Below, one piece after another: positions 11,872-18,322 of a stretch of DNA of 34,169 bases (position 1 is its first letter; each line of letters begins with the position of its first letter). Source of the stretch: Spirochaetales bacterium (GTDB taxonomy: Bacteria; Spirochaetota; Spirochaetia; Sphaerochaetales; Sphaerochaetaceae). Below the pieces are notes generated by a model, which did not search any database, was not told the DNA's origin, and was given only the letters and a program-made list of their open reading frames with translations. The DNA is taken from NCBI GenBank assembly GCA_012838895.1, contig DUOJ01000009.1, forward strand, positions 1 to 34,169, given 5' to 3'. A program made the translations under genes and the position numbers.

Positions 11872-12582
11872 ATGAAGAAAACAAGATTAGTAATATTTGT
11901 CGTTTTAGCGACACTCTTTTTGGCTAGTTGCCAAGGGGTATCTCTAGTTGAGAAGAGCCGCACAGTGACGGTGCAAGGGGCTGGAAAAGTGACCGTTGCC
12001 CCCGACTTAGCCTCTCTCAATGTGACGGTGAGTGAATTAGCTGACACCACCTTTGAGGCACAACAGCTGGTTAACACCAAGATTAGTCGCCTCCTTGAGA
12101 TGGCTGACAATTTGGGAATTGCCAAAGATGCTCTTAAGACAACTGGTCTAGAGTTCTATCCCGACTATCGCTGGAAAGATAATGAGCAGATCTTAGTAGG
12201 TCAGAGAGTTCAGCAACGCCTCTATATCAAAGTGAAAGACCTTGATGCGACCCTCCCAGCCCTAATTGACCAGTTAGCGACCCTCAGCGGAATCACAATT
12301 GGACAAGTCTCTTTTACCAAAGAGGAGACAGCTGAAGAGTATGCGGCGAGTCGTACCCTAGCGATGGAGAAGGCGATAGAGAAAGCGACCGATTACGCAA
12401 AAGCCGCTGGAATGAAGTTGGGCAAACCTCTCACAGTAAGTGATTACTCTTCTGCTGATGTGCGCAGTGCTCCGGTGGCACTGATGGCCAAAGCCGCTGA
12501 TGAGAGTTACGTGGGGAGTCAACTGCCAAGTGGCACCCTCGACATCACAACGACGGTATCGGTGGTCTTCGAGTTACTTTAA
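11872..12582 (+). CDS. SIMPL-domain lipoprotein
   Basis: A 236-residue exported protein. The N-terminus is a lipoprotein signal: 'MKKTR', a hydrophobic core, and the lipobox LASC with the lipidated Cys at residue 20, so it is anchored to a membrane on the periplasmic face. The mature part is a SIMPL/DUF541 (YggE-like) domain: 'RTVTVQGAGKVTVAPDLASLNVTVSE' region at about 30-55, 'ALKTTGLEFYPDYRW' near 84-98, and a C-terminal 'ASRTLAMEKAIEKATDYAKAAG' helix. YggE proteins are linked to oxidative stress tolerance, but no molecular activity is established. AGGAG lies upstream of ATG 11872. Its stop overlaps the convergent GNAT gene by 9 bp. Confidence 0.87.
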   Translation: MKKTRLVIFVVLATLFLASCQGVSLVEKSRTVTVQGAGKVTVAPDLASLNVTVSELADTTFEAQQLVNTKISRLLEMADNLGIAKDALKTTGLEFYPDYRWKDNEQILVGQRVQQRLYIKVKDLDATLPALIDQLATLSGITIGQVSFTKEETAEEYAASRTLAMEKAIEKATDYAKAAGMKLGKPLTVSDYSSADVRSAPVALMAKAADESYVGSQLPSGTLDITTTVSVVFELL

Positions 12583-13047
12583 ATTTAAGATTCTAGCTTC
12601 AGCCTCACTCGAGAGGGTCATCGTCACATGGAGACGGTTTCCCTCTTCGATATACCCACCGGTTGCGGTGAACCCTAGTGAGGCGTAAAACGGAGAAGCT
12701 TGTACTTGGGCTAGGATATAAATTGGTCTATTGGGGTAGAGCTCCCTTGCGCGCTTTACCCCCTCTTGAGTCAAAAGCTTGCCCAACTGTTTGCCCCGCT
12801 CTTGGGGTATAACAGCAATCCTCTCTAACTTAATCCCTTTCTCTGTGAGGCGAATACGCAAGGTTCCCACCCCCTTCTCCCCTCGCAAGAGGAGGAGGTG
12901 ACCACAATGGGGGTCGTTGTTGTCTCTCTCAACTTCCCGGGGGACCGCTTGCTCTTCAATGAAGACCTTGTCACGAATTGTGTGACACACTTTTAGGATA
13001 TCTGGGGAGACTTTACCTGGGGCAATTAACTCAAAGTGGAGCTCCAT
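12574..13047 (-). CDS. GNAT-family N-acetyltransferase
   Basis: A 157-residue acetyltransferase fold. 'VCHTIRDKVFIEEQAVP' near 22-38 is the N-terminal helix typical of the ElaA/YjcF-like GNAT group. The acetyl-CoA pyrophosphate loop is 'ERIAVIPQERGKQLGKLL' near 75-92 (the Q/RxxGxG/A motif, here Q-ERGKQLG), followed by 'ASPFYASLGFTATGGYIEEG', which matches motif B with the Tyr often used as general acid. The acceptor substrate is unknown. The gene starts inside the stop of the upstream GH36-like gene (TAATG, 1-base overlap), so it is translated from the same message; this suggests, but does not prove, that the two act together. Confidence 0.8.
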   Translation of the reverse strand: MELHFELIAPGKVSPDILKVCHTIRDKVFIEEQAVPREVERDNNDPHCGHLLLLRGEKGVGTLRIRLTEKGIKLERIAVIPQERGKQLGKLLTQEGVKRARELYPNRPIYILAQVQASPFYASLGFTATGGYIEEGNRLHVTMTLSSEAEARILNLK

Positions 13048-15380
13048 TATTTTTGCCCCTTAATATGGTAGATTCGGCACGAGAAGTCACCCATTACTCG
13101 AGTCTCTTCATCAAACCCCTCACCGGCAAACTTTTGATTGAGCCGGATGCCGTGGTAGGCTAAAACATCCCCCCCTACCGCGTAGAACTCAACCTCATTT
13201 GGGAGGGCCATTTTTTCACTTACCATCTTTTGGAGAGCTCCATCGTTGCGTAATTTAATGGGGGAGAATTTATTGAGAAGGGTTCCAAAGGTCCTAATAT
13301 CGATAAACTCAAGGCGCACTGTGACGTTGTAGAGTTGCTTTGGGTCGGCCAAAGGGATCCTCAAGATATCTTCTGCGGGGCTCACCATAGCGTGCTCTTG
13401 AAATAGGAGGACCAGCATCTCATCTCTTTCGGGGGTGGCTAATGCCCAAACTGTTTGGTTTTTACCCGTTGGTTCAATTCTAAAGAACTCTCCGTACTGG
13501 AAGAGTTTGCGGTGTAGCTTGTAGTAAGCGACCTGCTTCTCAATTATCTCTCTCTCCTTCTTTGAGAGGTTTAAGAGATCAATCTCATAACCTAAGACTC
13601 CAAAAGCCGCCACATTAAAGCGACTCTCGAGGGAGCTCTTACGGAGGTTGAGATGGTTGGGACTCTCTCCCACTCGGTTGGCCATGATTGAAGGGGGGTA
13701 GGAGTAGCTACTCCCTTCTTGGATTGAGAGGCGGTCAAAGGGGTCGCAGTTTTCACTGGCCAACGCTTGTCCCATATAACAAAGGATTCCTAGGTCAAAC
13801 CGCCCAGTAGCCTCAAAAAGAATCTCCGGGAAAGTATCGACAAATCTTTGGAGGAGGGTGTAGAGCCCCATCATGTAACGATAACTAAACTCACTTTGGG
13901 CAAATGCAGCGTTGAGGGAGTGGAGGTCGCTAAAGGTGCGACTCATCCCCCATTTAACGTAGTCAACTTTAGCCACCTTCCAGAGGGTGGAGAGGGTATC
14001 AAAGAGGTAGTCACGCACCTCCCCCTTGGTCAAGTCGAGAATGTACTGGTGACGCCCCACCGATGGTTTAATATCGGGGAGGGCTACTATCCAATCGGGG
14101 TGTTCCTTAAAGAGGTGACTTTTGCGACTAATCATCTCACCTTCACAGTAGAGGCCAAAGAGGAGCCCCATTGAGTGGATTCGTTGGGAGAAGATGGCTA
14201 ACCCTTCGGGGAGTTTTTTTGTATTGGCGCTCCAATCCCCTAAGCTAGTGGTCTCATCATCGCGGGTCCCAAACCATCCATCGTCTAAGACAAAGAGCTC
14301 TATCCCCAAGTCGGCTGCTGAGCGGGCCAGTTTTAAGAGGGTAGTGTCATTAAAGTCGAAGTAGGTTGCTTGCCAAGTGTTAAAGAGGACGGGGCGTTCC
14401 CGATTTTGCCAAGTCCCCCGTACAATGTGGTGGTTTATAAAGTGGTGGAAATTGCTACTTGCCCCATTGAGACCCTCGTGGGAGAAGGTTAAAAGAGCTT
14501 CGGGGGCGGTGAATTTCTCCCCTGAATGGAGGCGCCACTTAAAAGTAGCTGGGTTGAGACCGCTAAGGAGACGTACACTTCCCCGAGCGGCGAGCTCAAC
14601 TACTTGGGCGTGGTCGCCACTGTAGACGAGGTTACACCCATAACACTCTCCACTAAATTCGGTGCACCCCTCTTCGGTTAAAAAGAGGGCTGGGTTGTGG
14701 TGGAGAGAACCCACACCACTCGTTGAGCTGCTAAGGTGGATACCACTCCTTAAGGGGGCACTATGGCGATTTCTCTCACGCCCCCAAGCACCATCAAAGG
14801 TGACCAAGTTGTAGTTACCTCTAGGGAGGTCTAATTGGAGAGAGGCAATACGGTCAATTTCAACCCCCTCGACCCCTTCGTTGGTTAGGGTGGCTCGCCG
14901 GGCAATCACATTAGATTTCTCAAAGGTGGTGTAGGTCAATTCTAACCGAATAGGGGTGCTCTTATCGTAGAGGACCACTATAAGGGTGGTACACTCTAAG
15001 TTATCTCCGTACGATTCGGGCAATTTGGAGAAAGAGCGGGGCTTTCCATTAATGATACGGTGTTCCCGATAGATAAAATCGCCTACTATGCCCCTCTCTG
15101 GGATATTCAAAAGGAGGGCACTCTGGCGGTTATCGCCTTTGCCAAAAGAGGAGTACTCTAGGCAAAGGTTATCTAGAGAGAAATTTAGGTGCTCCTCGTT
15201 GTAGGCAATCGAGCGCTCTAAGGGGAGGGTACTCTTCTTGAAGAGCGCCTCTAGAGGTCTCTCGCTATCGATTCGTCTCCCGTAGTAGAGGTGTTCTAGG
15301 TGGCCTGTCTCAGTGACCCTGAAGAGGTAGCTGGTGGCTTGTGTATGGAGGCTGAAAACTTTGTTTTTTTCAAGAATCAT
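13047..15380 (-). CDS. GH36 alpha-galactosidase-like protein lacking the nucleophile Asp
   Basis: A 777-residue protein with GH36 architecture: N-terminal beta-supersandwich (about 1-320), a catalytic-type TIM barrel starting near 'FNTWQATYFDFND' and 'LFVLDDGWFGTRDDETTSLGDW', and a C-terminal beta domain. The family is normally about 720-750 residues. Structural motifs are well kept, but active-site positions are not. The nucleophile motif 'DYVKWDMNR' reads 'DYVKWGMSR', with Gly (GGG at 13947-13949) at residue 478. The acid/base motif 'SDDTDA' reads 'SENCDP' (542-547). The usual Cys/Gly-rich loop before 'GRFDLG' is shortened to 'FEATGRFD'. 'FEPEM' reads 'CEGEM'. It is therefore a pseudoenzyme or has a changed mechanism. 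No signal peptide, so cytoplasmic. AGGAG precedes ATG 15380. It shares its message with a GNAT gene and diverges from a mutarotase-like gene. Confidence 0.85.
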   Translation of the reverse strand: MILEKNKVFSLHTQATSYLFRVTETGHLEHLYYGRRIDSERPLEALFKKSTLPLERSIAYNEEHLNFSLDNLCLEYSSFGKGDNRQSALLLNIPERGIVGDFIYREHRIINGKPRSFSKLPESYGDNLECTTLIVVLYDKSTPIRLELTYTTFEKSNVIARRATLTNEGVEGVEIDRIASLQLDLPRGNYNLVTFDGAWGRERNRHSAPLRSGIHLSSSTSGVGSLHHNPALFLTEEGCTEFSGECYGCNLVYSGDHAQVVELAARGSVRLLSGLNPATFKWRLHSGEKFTAPEALLTFSHEGLNGASSNFHHFINHHIVRGTWQNRERPVLFNTWQATYFDFNDTTLLKLARSAADLGIELFVLDDGWFGTRDDETTSLGDWSANTKKLPEGLAIFSQRIHSMGLLFGLYCEGEMISRKSHLFKEHPDWIVALPDIKPSVGRHQYILDLTKGEVRDYLFDTLSTLWKVAKVDYVKWGMSRTFSDLHSLNAAFAQSEFSYRYMMGLYTLLQRFVDTFPEILFEATGRFDLGILCYMGQALASENCDPFDRLSIQEGSSYSYPPSIMANRVGESPNHLNLRKSSLESRFNVAAFGVLGYEIDLLNLSKKEREIIEKQVAYYKLHRKLFQYGEFFRIEPTGKNQTVWALATPERDEMLVLLFQEHAMVSPAEDILRIPLADPKQLYNVTVRLEFIDIRTFGTLLNKFSPIKLRNDGALQKMVSEKMALPNEVEFYAVGGDVLAYHGIRLNQKFAGEGFDEETRVMGDFSCRIYHIKGQK

Positions 15381-15435: not shown

Positions 15436-15461
15436 CTTGATGCAGTATAGCGTGCTCCAAG
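15436..15461. promoter_or_regulatory. Candidate operator between the GH36-like and mutarotase-like genes
   Basis: An inverted repeat with 9-bp arms, CTTGATGCA (15436-15444) and TGCTCCAAG (15453-15461), 7 of 9 positions complementary, with an 8-bp centre. It spans the -10 box of the GH36-like promoter, so a bound repressor would block it. A second imperfect palindrome, GGTAATATCACC (15425-15436), abuts it. No regulator gene is adjacent. Confidence 0.35.
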
Positions 15462-15472
15462 TGATTTGTAAA
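15444..15472 (-). promoter_or_regulatory. Sigma-70 promoter for the GH36-like operon
   Basis: On the minus strand TTTACA (complement of 15467-15472) and TATACT (complement of 15444-15449) are 17 bp apart, each 5/6 to consensus. The predicted start near 15437 leaves a leader of about 57 nt with AGGAG before the ATG. Confidence 0.6.
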
Positions 15473-15512
15473 ATATATGGGGCAAATAATAGTTAATCTT
15501 TGGGAGAGTGAT

Positions 15513-16757
15513 ATGGATGTAAAAAGGGTAGAGTTGTGGAAAGATAGAAACGCAACAGTCCTCTCAAATGAGTCAGTCAGGACAGTGATTGAAGATCATG
15601 GAGGGATGGTCCTTGAACTAAGCAACCTCAATGCAGCAGGAGGCAGGGTCAACGCCCACCCCCTCTACTGGTTCCGCGGTAAAGGCCCCTCAATTGAAGA
15701 GGATATTAACGCCTCTTTCTATGGTAACAGTGGCCTTTTGTACCACTTGGCGGGAAACTTCTTGTGTTTTCCAAGCTTTGGTGGCGGAGAGCCGGTCGAT
15801 GGAGTTCAACACGACCCCCATGGTTGGAGCGCCAACCGACGCTGGAATGTTGTTAAGTATGGTTCAGATGCTGAAACAGGAGCTAATTGGGTCCTCTCTT
15901 CTCTATCTAGTCCCAATGCTAACTACCCGTTTGAAGCTTTGAAGCTCGATTTAGTGCTCCCCTCCCACCCAGTTGCTTATACTAGTTTCTTAGTCAAAAA
16001 CACTGGTGATAAGCCCCTCCCGGCTAATGTGGCTTGGCACAACACCGTGGGGTCCCCCTTCTTAGAGAATGAGTGTGTGGTTAACATGAGTGCCACCTCC
16101 TTCGTTACTCCAATTGAAGAGTCTGAGTTTAAAAATACCGGTCGCCTCGCTTTCGACAAAGAGTTTGACGATCTAACTAAAGCTCCCTTGAGAAAAGATG
16201 GAACGTGTGACCTCTCAATCGTCCCTGGCATGATTGGCTACACCGACTTTGTTGCCGGTCGTATCCCCGATAGTGCCCAACTAGGGTGGAGCAGCGTTAT
16301 TAACCCTCGCCAGAAAATGGTCTACTTAACCTTCTTCCCCGGCCCAGCTGTGGTTGAAGAGGACGAGATCCCCTTCTACTTTAACAGTATGTGGATGCAG
16401 TATGGAGGCCGGCCATTCACCCCTTGGGCTCTCTATGAGGGGGGTGCCGACCACACCTTCTGTTTAGGGATGGAGAACTCAATTAGTTACTACGCCAATG
16501 GCCTAAAAGAGGCGATTGATGCTAAAACCCTCCTTGGGGCACCCACAACAATTATGTTGCCTCCCCATGAGACGCGCGTACAGCGCTACGCCACCGCCTT
16601 CACCTCCTATGAGAACAGTAAGCTGGGGAATGGGATTCAGGCGTTGGAGCAAAGTGAAGAGGGGATTATCCTTAAACAGGGCAAAGCGAGTGCACTAATC
16701 AACTGCGACTCCACCTTCGCCCTCCTCAAAGCAATCGAGAAACGTGTTTTAAATTAG
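15513..16757 (+). CDS. Probable galactose-mutarotase-fold protein of unknown substrate
   Basis: A 414-residue cytoplasmic protein. I chose ATG 15513 because GGGAGAG lies just upstream; the in-frame ATG at 15477 has no ribosome binding site. The sequence is rich in beta strands and opens like aldose 1-epimerase relatives: a strand 'WKDRNATVLSNESVRTVIEDHGGMVLEL' region (residues 8-37), then 'FPSFGGGEPVDGVQHDPHGW' near 90-110, where His-Asp-Pro-His-Gly resembles the substrate-site 'HG' region of mutarotases. 'VAWHNTVGSPFL' near 172-183 could supply the second His. 'HETRVQRYATAFTSY' closes the domain. The family assignment is by pattern only and the substrate unknown. Divergent placement opposite a GH36-like gene suggests a shared role with a hexose or glycoside. 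A terminator-like hairpin follows 24 bp after its stop. Confidence 0.55.
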   Translation: MDVKRVELWKDRNATVLSNESVRTVIEDHGGMVLELSNLNAAGGRVNAHPLYWFRGKGPSIEEDINASFYGNSGLLYHLAGNFLCFPSFGGGEPVDGVQHDPHGWSANRRWNVVKYGSDAETGANWVLSSLSSPNANYPFEALKLDLVLPSHPVAYTSFLVKNTGDKPLPANVAWHNTVGSPFLENECVVNMSATSFVTPIEESEFKNTGRLAFDKEFDDLTKAPLRKDGTCDLSIVPGMIGYTDFVAGRIPDSAQLGWSSVINPRQKMVYLTFFPGPAVVEEDEIPFYFNSMWMQYGGRPFTPWALYEGGADHTFCLGMENSISYYANGLKEAIDAKTLLGAPTTIMLPPHETRVQRYATAFTSYENSKLGNGIQALEQSEEGIILKQGKASALINCDSTFALLKAIEKRVLN

Positions 16758-16819: not shown

Positions 16820-18322
16820 ATGGCGACCTATATCGAAACCCCATCGCGAACCTTTAATGAGTATTTGCTAATCCCGGGCTACTCTTCTGAAGAGTGTATC
16901 CCGAGCAATGTCGACCTTAGAGCTCCACTGGTGAGGTTTAGGCGAGGCGAAGAGTCCCCTTTAAAACTCAACATCCCCCTCGTTTCAGCGATTATGCAAT
17001 CGGTGAGTGGCGAGAGGTTGGCCATTGCCCTCGCTAAAGAGGGGGGCCTCTCATTTATCTATGCCAGTCAACCAATTGAAGAGCAGGCCCAGATGGTGAG
17101 GCGGGTAAAAAGCTACAAAGCGGGCTTTGTTGTGAGTGACTCCAATATTAAAGGCGACGCTACCCTCAACGACTTGGTTGCCCTTAAAGCTAAAACAGGC
17201 CACTCAACAGTAGCGGTGACAGCTGATGGTTCACCCACCGGAAAACTTTTAGGGCTTATCACCAGCCGTGACTACCGGGTCCATCGGATGGAGGGGTCAA
17301 CGCCGGTTCACACCTTCATGACCAAGATGGAAAATCTTGTCTATGGAGATGAGTCACTCTCCTTAACTGAAGCCAACGATATGATCTGGGACCATAAACT
17401 AAACACCCTCCCCATTGTTGATAAACAGGGTAATCTCGTATCGCTCGTTTTCCGCAAAGACTACGACAGCCATAAAGAGCACCCCCTTGAGCTCCACGAT
17501 GAAGATAAACGCCTCTTGGTGGGGGCAGGGGTTAACACCCACGACTACCGCGAAAGGATTCCCGCCCTAGTTGCCGCCGGTGCCGATATCCTCTGTATCG
17601 ACTCGTCAGAGGGGTTCACCGATTGGCAAAGAAATGTGTTGCAATTTGTCCAAGATGAGTACCAAGGAAGAGTAAAGATTGGAGGGGGTAACGTCGTTGA
17701 CCGGGAAGGCTTTAGGTTCCTCGCCGACAGCGGTGCCGACTTCATAAAAGTTGGAATTGGCGGGGGGTCAATTTGTATCACCCGAGAGACCAAGGGGATT
17801 GGTCGGGGGCAAGCTTCATCTTTGATTGAGGTCGCTCAAGCCCGCGATGAGTACTTCCAAGAGACGGGAATCTACGTTCCTATCTGTAGCGATGGGGGAA
17901 TTGTCTACGACCACCATCTCACCCTAGCTTTGGCGATGGGGGCCGATTTCCTAATGTTGGGGCGCTATTTTGCCCGCTTTGATGAGAGCCCTACCAATCG
18001 GGTTTTTGTCAACGGCTCCTATGTTAAAGAGTATTGGGGAGAGGGGTCAGGAAGGGCCCGTAACTGGCAACGCTACAACGGCGATGGTGAGGGGCACCTC
18101 TCCTTTGAAGAGGGGGTCGACTCTTATGTCCCCTATGCCGGTCCTCTAAGGGATAACCTCCACCTCACCCTTACCAAGGTGCGCTCCACAATGTGTAACT
18201 GTGGAGCCCTCACCTTAGATGAGCTCAAAGAGAAATCCAAACTGACAGTTGTTTCAGCTACCAGTATTGTTGAGGGGGGGGCTCACGACGTTATCCTCAA
18301 AGATAGCCACTCCCTCAACTAA
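16820..18322 (+). CDS. guaB: IMP dehydrogenase
   Basis: A 500-residue NAD-dependent enzyme converting IMP to XMP, the committed step to GMP. The catalytic loop is '[20 protein letters not shown]' with C319 as the nucleophile. The Bateman module of two CBS domains sits at about 105-225 ('[16 protein letters not shown]' and '[17 protein letters not shown]'). '[36 protein letters not shown]' is the phosphate-binding and following region. It belongs to a divergent subfamily: the usual 'SAAMDTVT' reads 'SAIMQSVS', and the flap and C-terminus ('[14 protein letters not shown]', '[15 protein letters not shown]') differ from E. coli GuaB. Its ribosome binding site lies in a terminator-like hairpin right before the ATG. 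A minus-strand terminator and tRNA-Cys follow. Function is near certain given the motifs; GMP reductase is excluded by the CBS domains and loop. Confidence 0.93.

Follow-up and report, generated by a model that had tools for sequence, protein, structure and literature searches.

The GH36 locus

The window, i.e. the whole 34,169-nt stretch of DNA analysed here, carries on its reverse strand an intact GH36-type open reading frame (ORF), with the coordinates and the 777 codons that had been given in an earlier note on this DNA. The features of the locus are as follows.

13047..15380, reverse strand: GH36-fold protein of 777 aa, predicted to be catalytically dead as a retaining alpha-galactosidase (Pfam, alignment, AF2 model)
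14139..14150, reverse strand: beta-3 motif YCEG, residues 411-414 (WxEP in intact relatives), with W411Y and P414G (alignment)
13947..13949, reverse strand: nucleophile position (AgaA D478), occupied by Gly (codon 478, GGG) within YVKWGMSR (alignment; pattern match at 13939-13961)
13800..13814, reverse strand: shortened galactose-recognition loop, residues 523-527 (EATGR), CXXGXXR lost through a 4-residue deletion (alignment)
13752..13754, reverse strand: acid/base position (AgaA D548), occupied by Glu (codon 543, GAA) within SENCD (alignment)
12574..13047, reverse strand: GNAT acetyltransferase ORF, its start codon (ATG) overlapping the stop of GH36 (TAATG), with possible translational coupling
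15444..15472, reverse strand: promoter-like sequence 5′ of the GH36 gene, within chance expectation for the region
15477..16757, forward strand: divergent partner gene, mutarotase-like, with weak Aldose_epim / DUF4432 similarity

The GH36 protein is full-length, and all three of its domains scored over the Pfam cut-offs (Melibiase, E=1.4e-118; GH36N, 3.8e-74; GH36C, 5.3e-08), in agreement with the claim that the motifs of the GH36 fold are kept. An AF2 model of moderate confidence (pLDDT 75.9, pTM 0.78; input alignment of 11 sequences) matched GH36 crystal structures (2xn0, 3mi6 and 4fnq, among others) with TM values of 0.76-0.83, suggesting that the fold is intact. Both the three domains and the fold match thus place the protein within the GH36 sequence and fold family. 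The gene has an AGGAG-type ribosome binding site, as had been described. The "good promoter" of the same description held only in part: a match exists (TTTACA-17-TATACT), but three such matches were found in the region against 2.2 expected by chance, so that it is no more than suggestive.

The window and its nearest relatives share the gene order NUDIX, SIMPL, GNAT, GH36, divergent mutarotase-like gene, DeoR, Ldh_2 and malic enzyme. Synteny around GH36 is intact on both sides, and the shared order identifies the window gene as the positional orthologue of the relatives' copies. In the window, an IMP dehydrogenase gene (16820-18322) sits between the partner and DeoR genes; no homologue of it was found in the matching stretches of the nearest relatives. 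The family of the mutarotase-like partner is kept in 102 of 139 genomes, at scores below the Pfam cut-offs, and a search for a relative in the PDB found none. At the corresponding loci of other genera, a gpsA-like (NAD glycerol-3-phosphate dehydrogenase) gene lies directly 3′ of the GH36-like gene, often overlapping it, in 13 of 16 cases (e.g. L160:8304-9260 and L157:8468-9436), and it also follows intact copies in two genomes (G005 and G007). It is absent from this position in the window. Gene order would suggest a link between the gpsA-like gene and the GH36-like protein. A search for anti-phage families gave no match, and searches for galactokinase and GalT gave no discrimination.

Loss of catalytic and substrate-binding residues

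Residue-by-residue alignment with AgaB and AgaA (4fnq/4fnr) placed Gly478 exactly on the AgaA nucleophile D478. That is, the Asp of the KWDMNR motif, present in AgaA, AgaB and all close relatives, is replaced by Gly in the window protein, as the earlier note had claimed. The same alignment set Glu543 on AgaA D548, bearing out the claimed change of the first Asp in the acid/base motif (S-D-D/N-T-D), and it confirmed that the substrate loop is four residues shorter: FESCSGGGGRFD in AgaB/AgaA corresponds to FEATGRFD in the window (EATG----RFD aligned with ESCASGGNRFD). The CXXGXXR sequence lost there is the galactose-recognition motif of GH36 subgroup I (PMC5094572). In a characterised GH36 enzyme, replacing the nucleophile Asp by Ala (D451A) abolishes hydrolysis and changing the recognition-loop Cys to Asn costs about 200-fold (PMC6213131).

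The window protein differs further at W411Y, W540L (AgaA W545), P414G, N480S, E337Q, H569R and Q577L. Altogether, 12 of the 92 columns that are invariant across 49 homologues are altered or deleted in it, and among its closest relatives it alone breaks them. These changes are enriched at substrate contacts (five of ten columns, versus seven of 82; P=0.003). The subsite -1 contacts described in the literature are Trp336, Asp366, Trp411, Arg443, Lys476 and the Trp that precedes the acid/base residue (PMC7688924); half of them are missing in the window, while D366, R443 and K476 stay, as do the pocket residues D367, W477 and D546.

A sequencing or assembly error can be ruled out. The nucleophile codon is GGG in the window and GAC or GAT in relatives, which implies at least two base changes and not one miscall; moreover, the changes are many and coordinated, and synteny is intact.

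The retained pocket residues D366, D367, R443, K476 and D546 could be taken to mean that the protein has an altered specificity and still carries out residual retaining catalysis through some other nearby nucleophile. We regard this as highly improbable, since the 4-residue deletion together with the loss of D478, W411 and W540 removes most of subsite -1, and since the obvious candidates are not new: D366 is a substrate-binding residue of GH36, and the intact enzymes likewise conserve both D366 and D367. In the window protein, the active-site motifs show no new carboxylate. With catalytic residues and recognition loop gone, the view of the earlier note that this is not a canonical retaining alpha-galactosidase stands, and hydrolysis of alpha-galactosides has presumably been lost.

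Orthology and evolutionary rate

The orthologues of the nearest relatives are intact GH36 proteins with both Asp residues kept. Indeed, none of the 49 homologues in the first alignment departs from the nucleophile Asp of KWD or from the acid/base Asp of S-D-x-T/S-D. A scan of genome contigs for close relatives found full-length relatives of only 36-43%. In trees the window copy was nested among intact copies, also when the active-site columns were left out, although these were quick searches in which some forks stay open. Synteny and tree together rule out a divergent paralogue or a horizontally acquired copy.

The window copy has evolved fast, with a GH36 tip length of 0.55-0.59 as compared with 0.09-0.10 for the sister copy. 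All genes of the locus between 6088 and 21783 are likewise faster than in the sister genome (tip ratios of 1.3 to 8.1, GH36 5.8), and the fastest-evolving neighbour is the GNAT gene (12574-13047; 8.1). Such locus-wide speed suggests a genome-wide acceleration or reduction in the window lineage. The assembly of the window genome comprises 1.73 Mb and is 85% complete, and 13047-15380 is the only GH36 copy found in it.

Selection on the window branch

Among ten locus genes analysed with a codon model, only GH36 strongly favoured an omega of its own on the window branch (2dlnL of 20.1, as against at most 4.0 for the others), and omega=1 on that branch was rejected (2dlnL of 54.5). The sample contains no congener of the window species. 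Synonymous sites on the branch are saturated, so that the omega is rough, and branch lengths reach their bound, so that absolute values are not reliable. Furthermore, under unconstrained drift about five nonsense events would be expected to accompany ten invariant-site changes, whereas none was seen (P about 0.017).

These results bear on whether the gene could be an early pseudogene, i.e. one that lost selection recently, has acquired no stop codon yet and keeps its frame by chance or through coupling to GNAT. Several observations fit such a scenario. The window branch is accelerated within a locus that is fast as a whole, its dS is saturated, no close relative shares its change, and no second GH36 copy was found in the genome, which is small and incomplete. 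In addition, the overlap of the GH36 stop with the GNAT start (TAATG) might help to hold the GH36 frame open. Nevertheless, the rejection of omega=1 and the lack of nonsense codons argue against it, the changes cluster at substrate contacts and are not random, and strong purifying selection acts on orthologues that have undergone the same losses (see below). We therefore consider an early pseudogene rather unlikely. The conclusion of the earlier note that the gene is maintained and not decaying agrees with the rejection of neutrality on the branch, the kept synteny and the low dN/dS of the degenerate orthologues. In other words, the protein has the two marks of a pseudoenzyme, loss of the catalytic motif and maintenance by selection, the window's own dS being saturated.

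Recurrent loss at the partner locus

The survey covered 119 homologues (ten of them from other records) and then 146 GH36 copies of the same taxonomic family. It overturned the idea of a one-off loss, because other copies had lost the Asp in the contexts RWG, RWN and RYE. The earlier note had taken homologues that all carry Asp as a sign of a local error; Asp is indeed universal among the 49 first aligned but not across the wider family, where other positional orthologues have lost it. A phylum-wide scan yielded one extra KWGM motif match, which is antisense to a transporter ORF and hence due to chance.

Besides the window, 48 copies have lost the nucleophile or the acid/base residue. The mutarotase-like partner adjoins every degenerate copy whose join is assembled: 47 of the 48 lie next to it, and the remaining one (L183) starts 53 bases from the edge of its contig, the partner gene being assembled on a different one. 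The partner locus thus counts 42 intact copies and 48 degenerate ones, whereas away from it 53 copies are intact and none is clearly degenerate. The association between loss and locus is strong (Fisher 2e-13, window added), although this overstates the evidence because copies of related genomes do not count as independent observations. How many separate losses the tree shows does not hinge on this test. Without the active-site columns, the tree implied about seven changes of the nucleophile state and nine of the acid/base state, some of which may be reversals.

The substitutes among the degenerate copies are varied: N, E, G or S at the nucleophile site, and C, E, A, V, S, K, R, Q or Y at the acid/base site. 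The Gly and Glu pair of the window occurs in four more copies (L139, L143, L144 and L185) and SENCD recurs in L138, all five in other branches of the tree; judged from the alignment and the tree, the catalytic loss in the window is independent of the others. In four genomes the ORF at the locus has shrunk to 614-629 aa (L210:1771-3636, L211:4848-6689, L212:1764-3650 and L213:3763-5604), in which the catalytic strands are eroded and a non-catalytic segment (W369, GDW383, FPSG, H402) is strongly kept. Among the matches listed, an intact GH36 elsewhere in the genome accompanies the degenerate copy in at least 31 of 49 cases; the window genome belongs to the group (at most 18 genomes) in which no intact GH36 was found.

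Constraint on the degenerate copies

Pairs of degenerate copies with dS below 1 gave dN/dS values of 0.026-0.167, as compared with a median of 0.068 for intact pairs. Pairs lacking the nucleophile were similarly constrained: 0.056 for the closest, with N and A at the two sites (dS 0.39), 0.032 for a pair with G and E (dS 0.93) and 0.167 for a pair with S and S (dS 0.74). By contrast, the mean entropy of the ten literature pocket positions was 1.80 bits in the degenerate copies (1.57 in the rest of the barrel), a value that includes differences between several sublineages, each possibly with its own function, versus 0.28 bits for the intact copies of the locus and 0.00 for intact copies elsewhere. 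Thus, the pocket has been released from constraint, which persists on the body of the protein. D367 and D546 are kept in all 48 degenerate copies.

The drift of the pocket also bears on a possible switch to an inverting hydrolase or phosphorylase, in which water or phosphate would attack directly at the Gly site, with E543 as acid, while the base would be the beta-3 residue E413 or E415, by analogy with inverting GH97. In the inverting enzyme BtGH97a (SusB), Gly469 and Glu532 occupy the nucleophile and acid positions of the related GH27 fold, and the base, Glu439, lies elsewhere (PMC2670981); G478 and E543 reproduce this pair in the window, as do the four other copies with Gly and Glu. W411Y and P414G flank E413 and E415, and SusB was among the fold matches of the model, at a low TM of 0.42-0.48. 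However, E413 and E415 have long been part of GH36, in the window no new carboxylate has appeared, and for the general base (the HHET Glu) and the calcium-binding Glu of GH97 the two residues are topological candidates only. Since the hhalign match between the GH36 and GH97 profiles spanned the beta-2 region only, the placing of the base is topological guesswork. Moreover, S or D frequently replaces E413 among the degenerate copies, the nucleophile site varies among N, E, G and S, and no new catalytic set is conserved. An inverting mechanism is thus possible for the window protein and disfavoured for the degenerate group; as an account of the window gene we give it little credence.

Interpretation

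Taken together, the window gene is probably a GH36 pseudoenzyme, that is, an orthologue of a conserved alpha-galactosidase that has independently lost its catalytic set and whose fold stays under purifying selection for a non-catalytic function. The loss itself, the orthology, the recurrence at this locus only and the constraint on degenerate orthologues with drifting pockets are direct observations. A scaffold or sensor predicts a conserved body with a drifting pocket, whereas a new mechanism would conserve residues of its own; because the pocket of the group drifts freely and no replacement nucleophile is conserved, a non-catalytic role fits best. Of the functions that the earlier note had raised, a role in binding (such as a sugar-binding sensor) or as a scaffold is therefore the best fit, whereas a transglycosidase, a phosphorylase-like enzyme or the use of another nucleophile is unsupported for the degenerate group.

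We propose that an ancestral GH36 alpha-galactosidase at the locus lost its nucleophile, its normal acid/base and the galactose-recognition loop, and that its GH36 body may have been retained by selection as a scaffold or a sugar-responsive binding protein. In line with this, the title of the PDB entry 4fnu, a crystal of AgaA D478A with stachyose, indicates that a GH36 protein without nucleophile can still hold substrate. Because the mutarotase-like gene so strictly accompanies these copies, it is the best candidate for a partner, and gene order suggests that the retained function is probably exercised with its product. More tentatively, and with somewhat more doubt than belief, GH36 at this locus may have an ancient second, non-catalytic function across the family, exerted with the mutarotase-like partner also by copies that still hydrolyse, so that the activity was dispensable and has been discarded many times, down to the 615-residue remnants.

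Annotation based on Pfam labels all these proteins alpha-galactosidase (melibiase), and pathway predictions for these bacteria would therefore be wrong at the locus where copies are degenerate. The locus also constitutes a natural experiment in the repurposing of a glycosidase fold: intact, partly dead, fully dead and truncated forms occupy one syntenic position next to the same partner, so that what selection keeps after the loss of catalysis can be read from an alignment. A search of the open-access literature found no earlier report of a GH36 pseudoenzyme, which is not proof of absence.

Comparison with known systems

The window protein shares with GH36 subgroup I (AgaA/AgaB, LaMel36A, AgaSK and 3mi6) the three domains, the (beta/alpha)8 barrel, the TM values given above and the residues D366, D367, R443, K476, W477 and D546; it differs in D478G, D548E, W411Y and W545L (AgaA numbering for the altered catalytic and Trp sites) and in the deletion of the CXXGXXR loop. 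The engineered alpha-galactosynthase TmGalA D327G has the same nucleophile change from Asp to Gly within GH36 (PMC6151457), and the window protein and the other copies with Gly at this site carry that change naturally. TmGalA D327G, however, has this one mutation only and works with an activated beta-galactosyl azide as donor, whereas the pocket of the window protein is also dismantled. The inverting GH97 enzyme BtGH97a (SusB) resembles the window protein in the Gly and Glu of its nucleophile and acid sites and in the related clan fold (PMC2670981), but GH97 has the conserved base Glu439 and a calcium site, and the GH36 copies have no such conserved set. Further parallels are outliers of GH97 and other inactive glycosidase relatives, with examples in GH18 and GH13, in which catalytic residues are lost, the fold is kept and non-enzymatic roles are suspected (PMC2670981). 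Unlike in those examples, the loss in GH36 is recurrent, confined to one syntenic locus and accompanied by demonstrable purifying selection.
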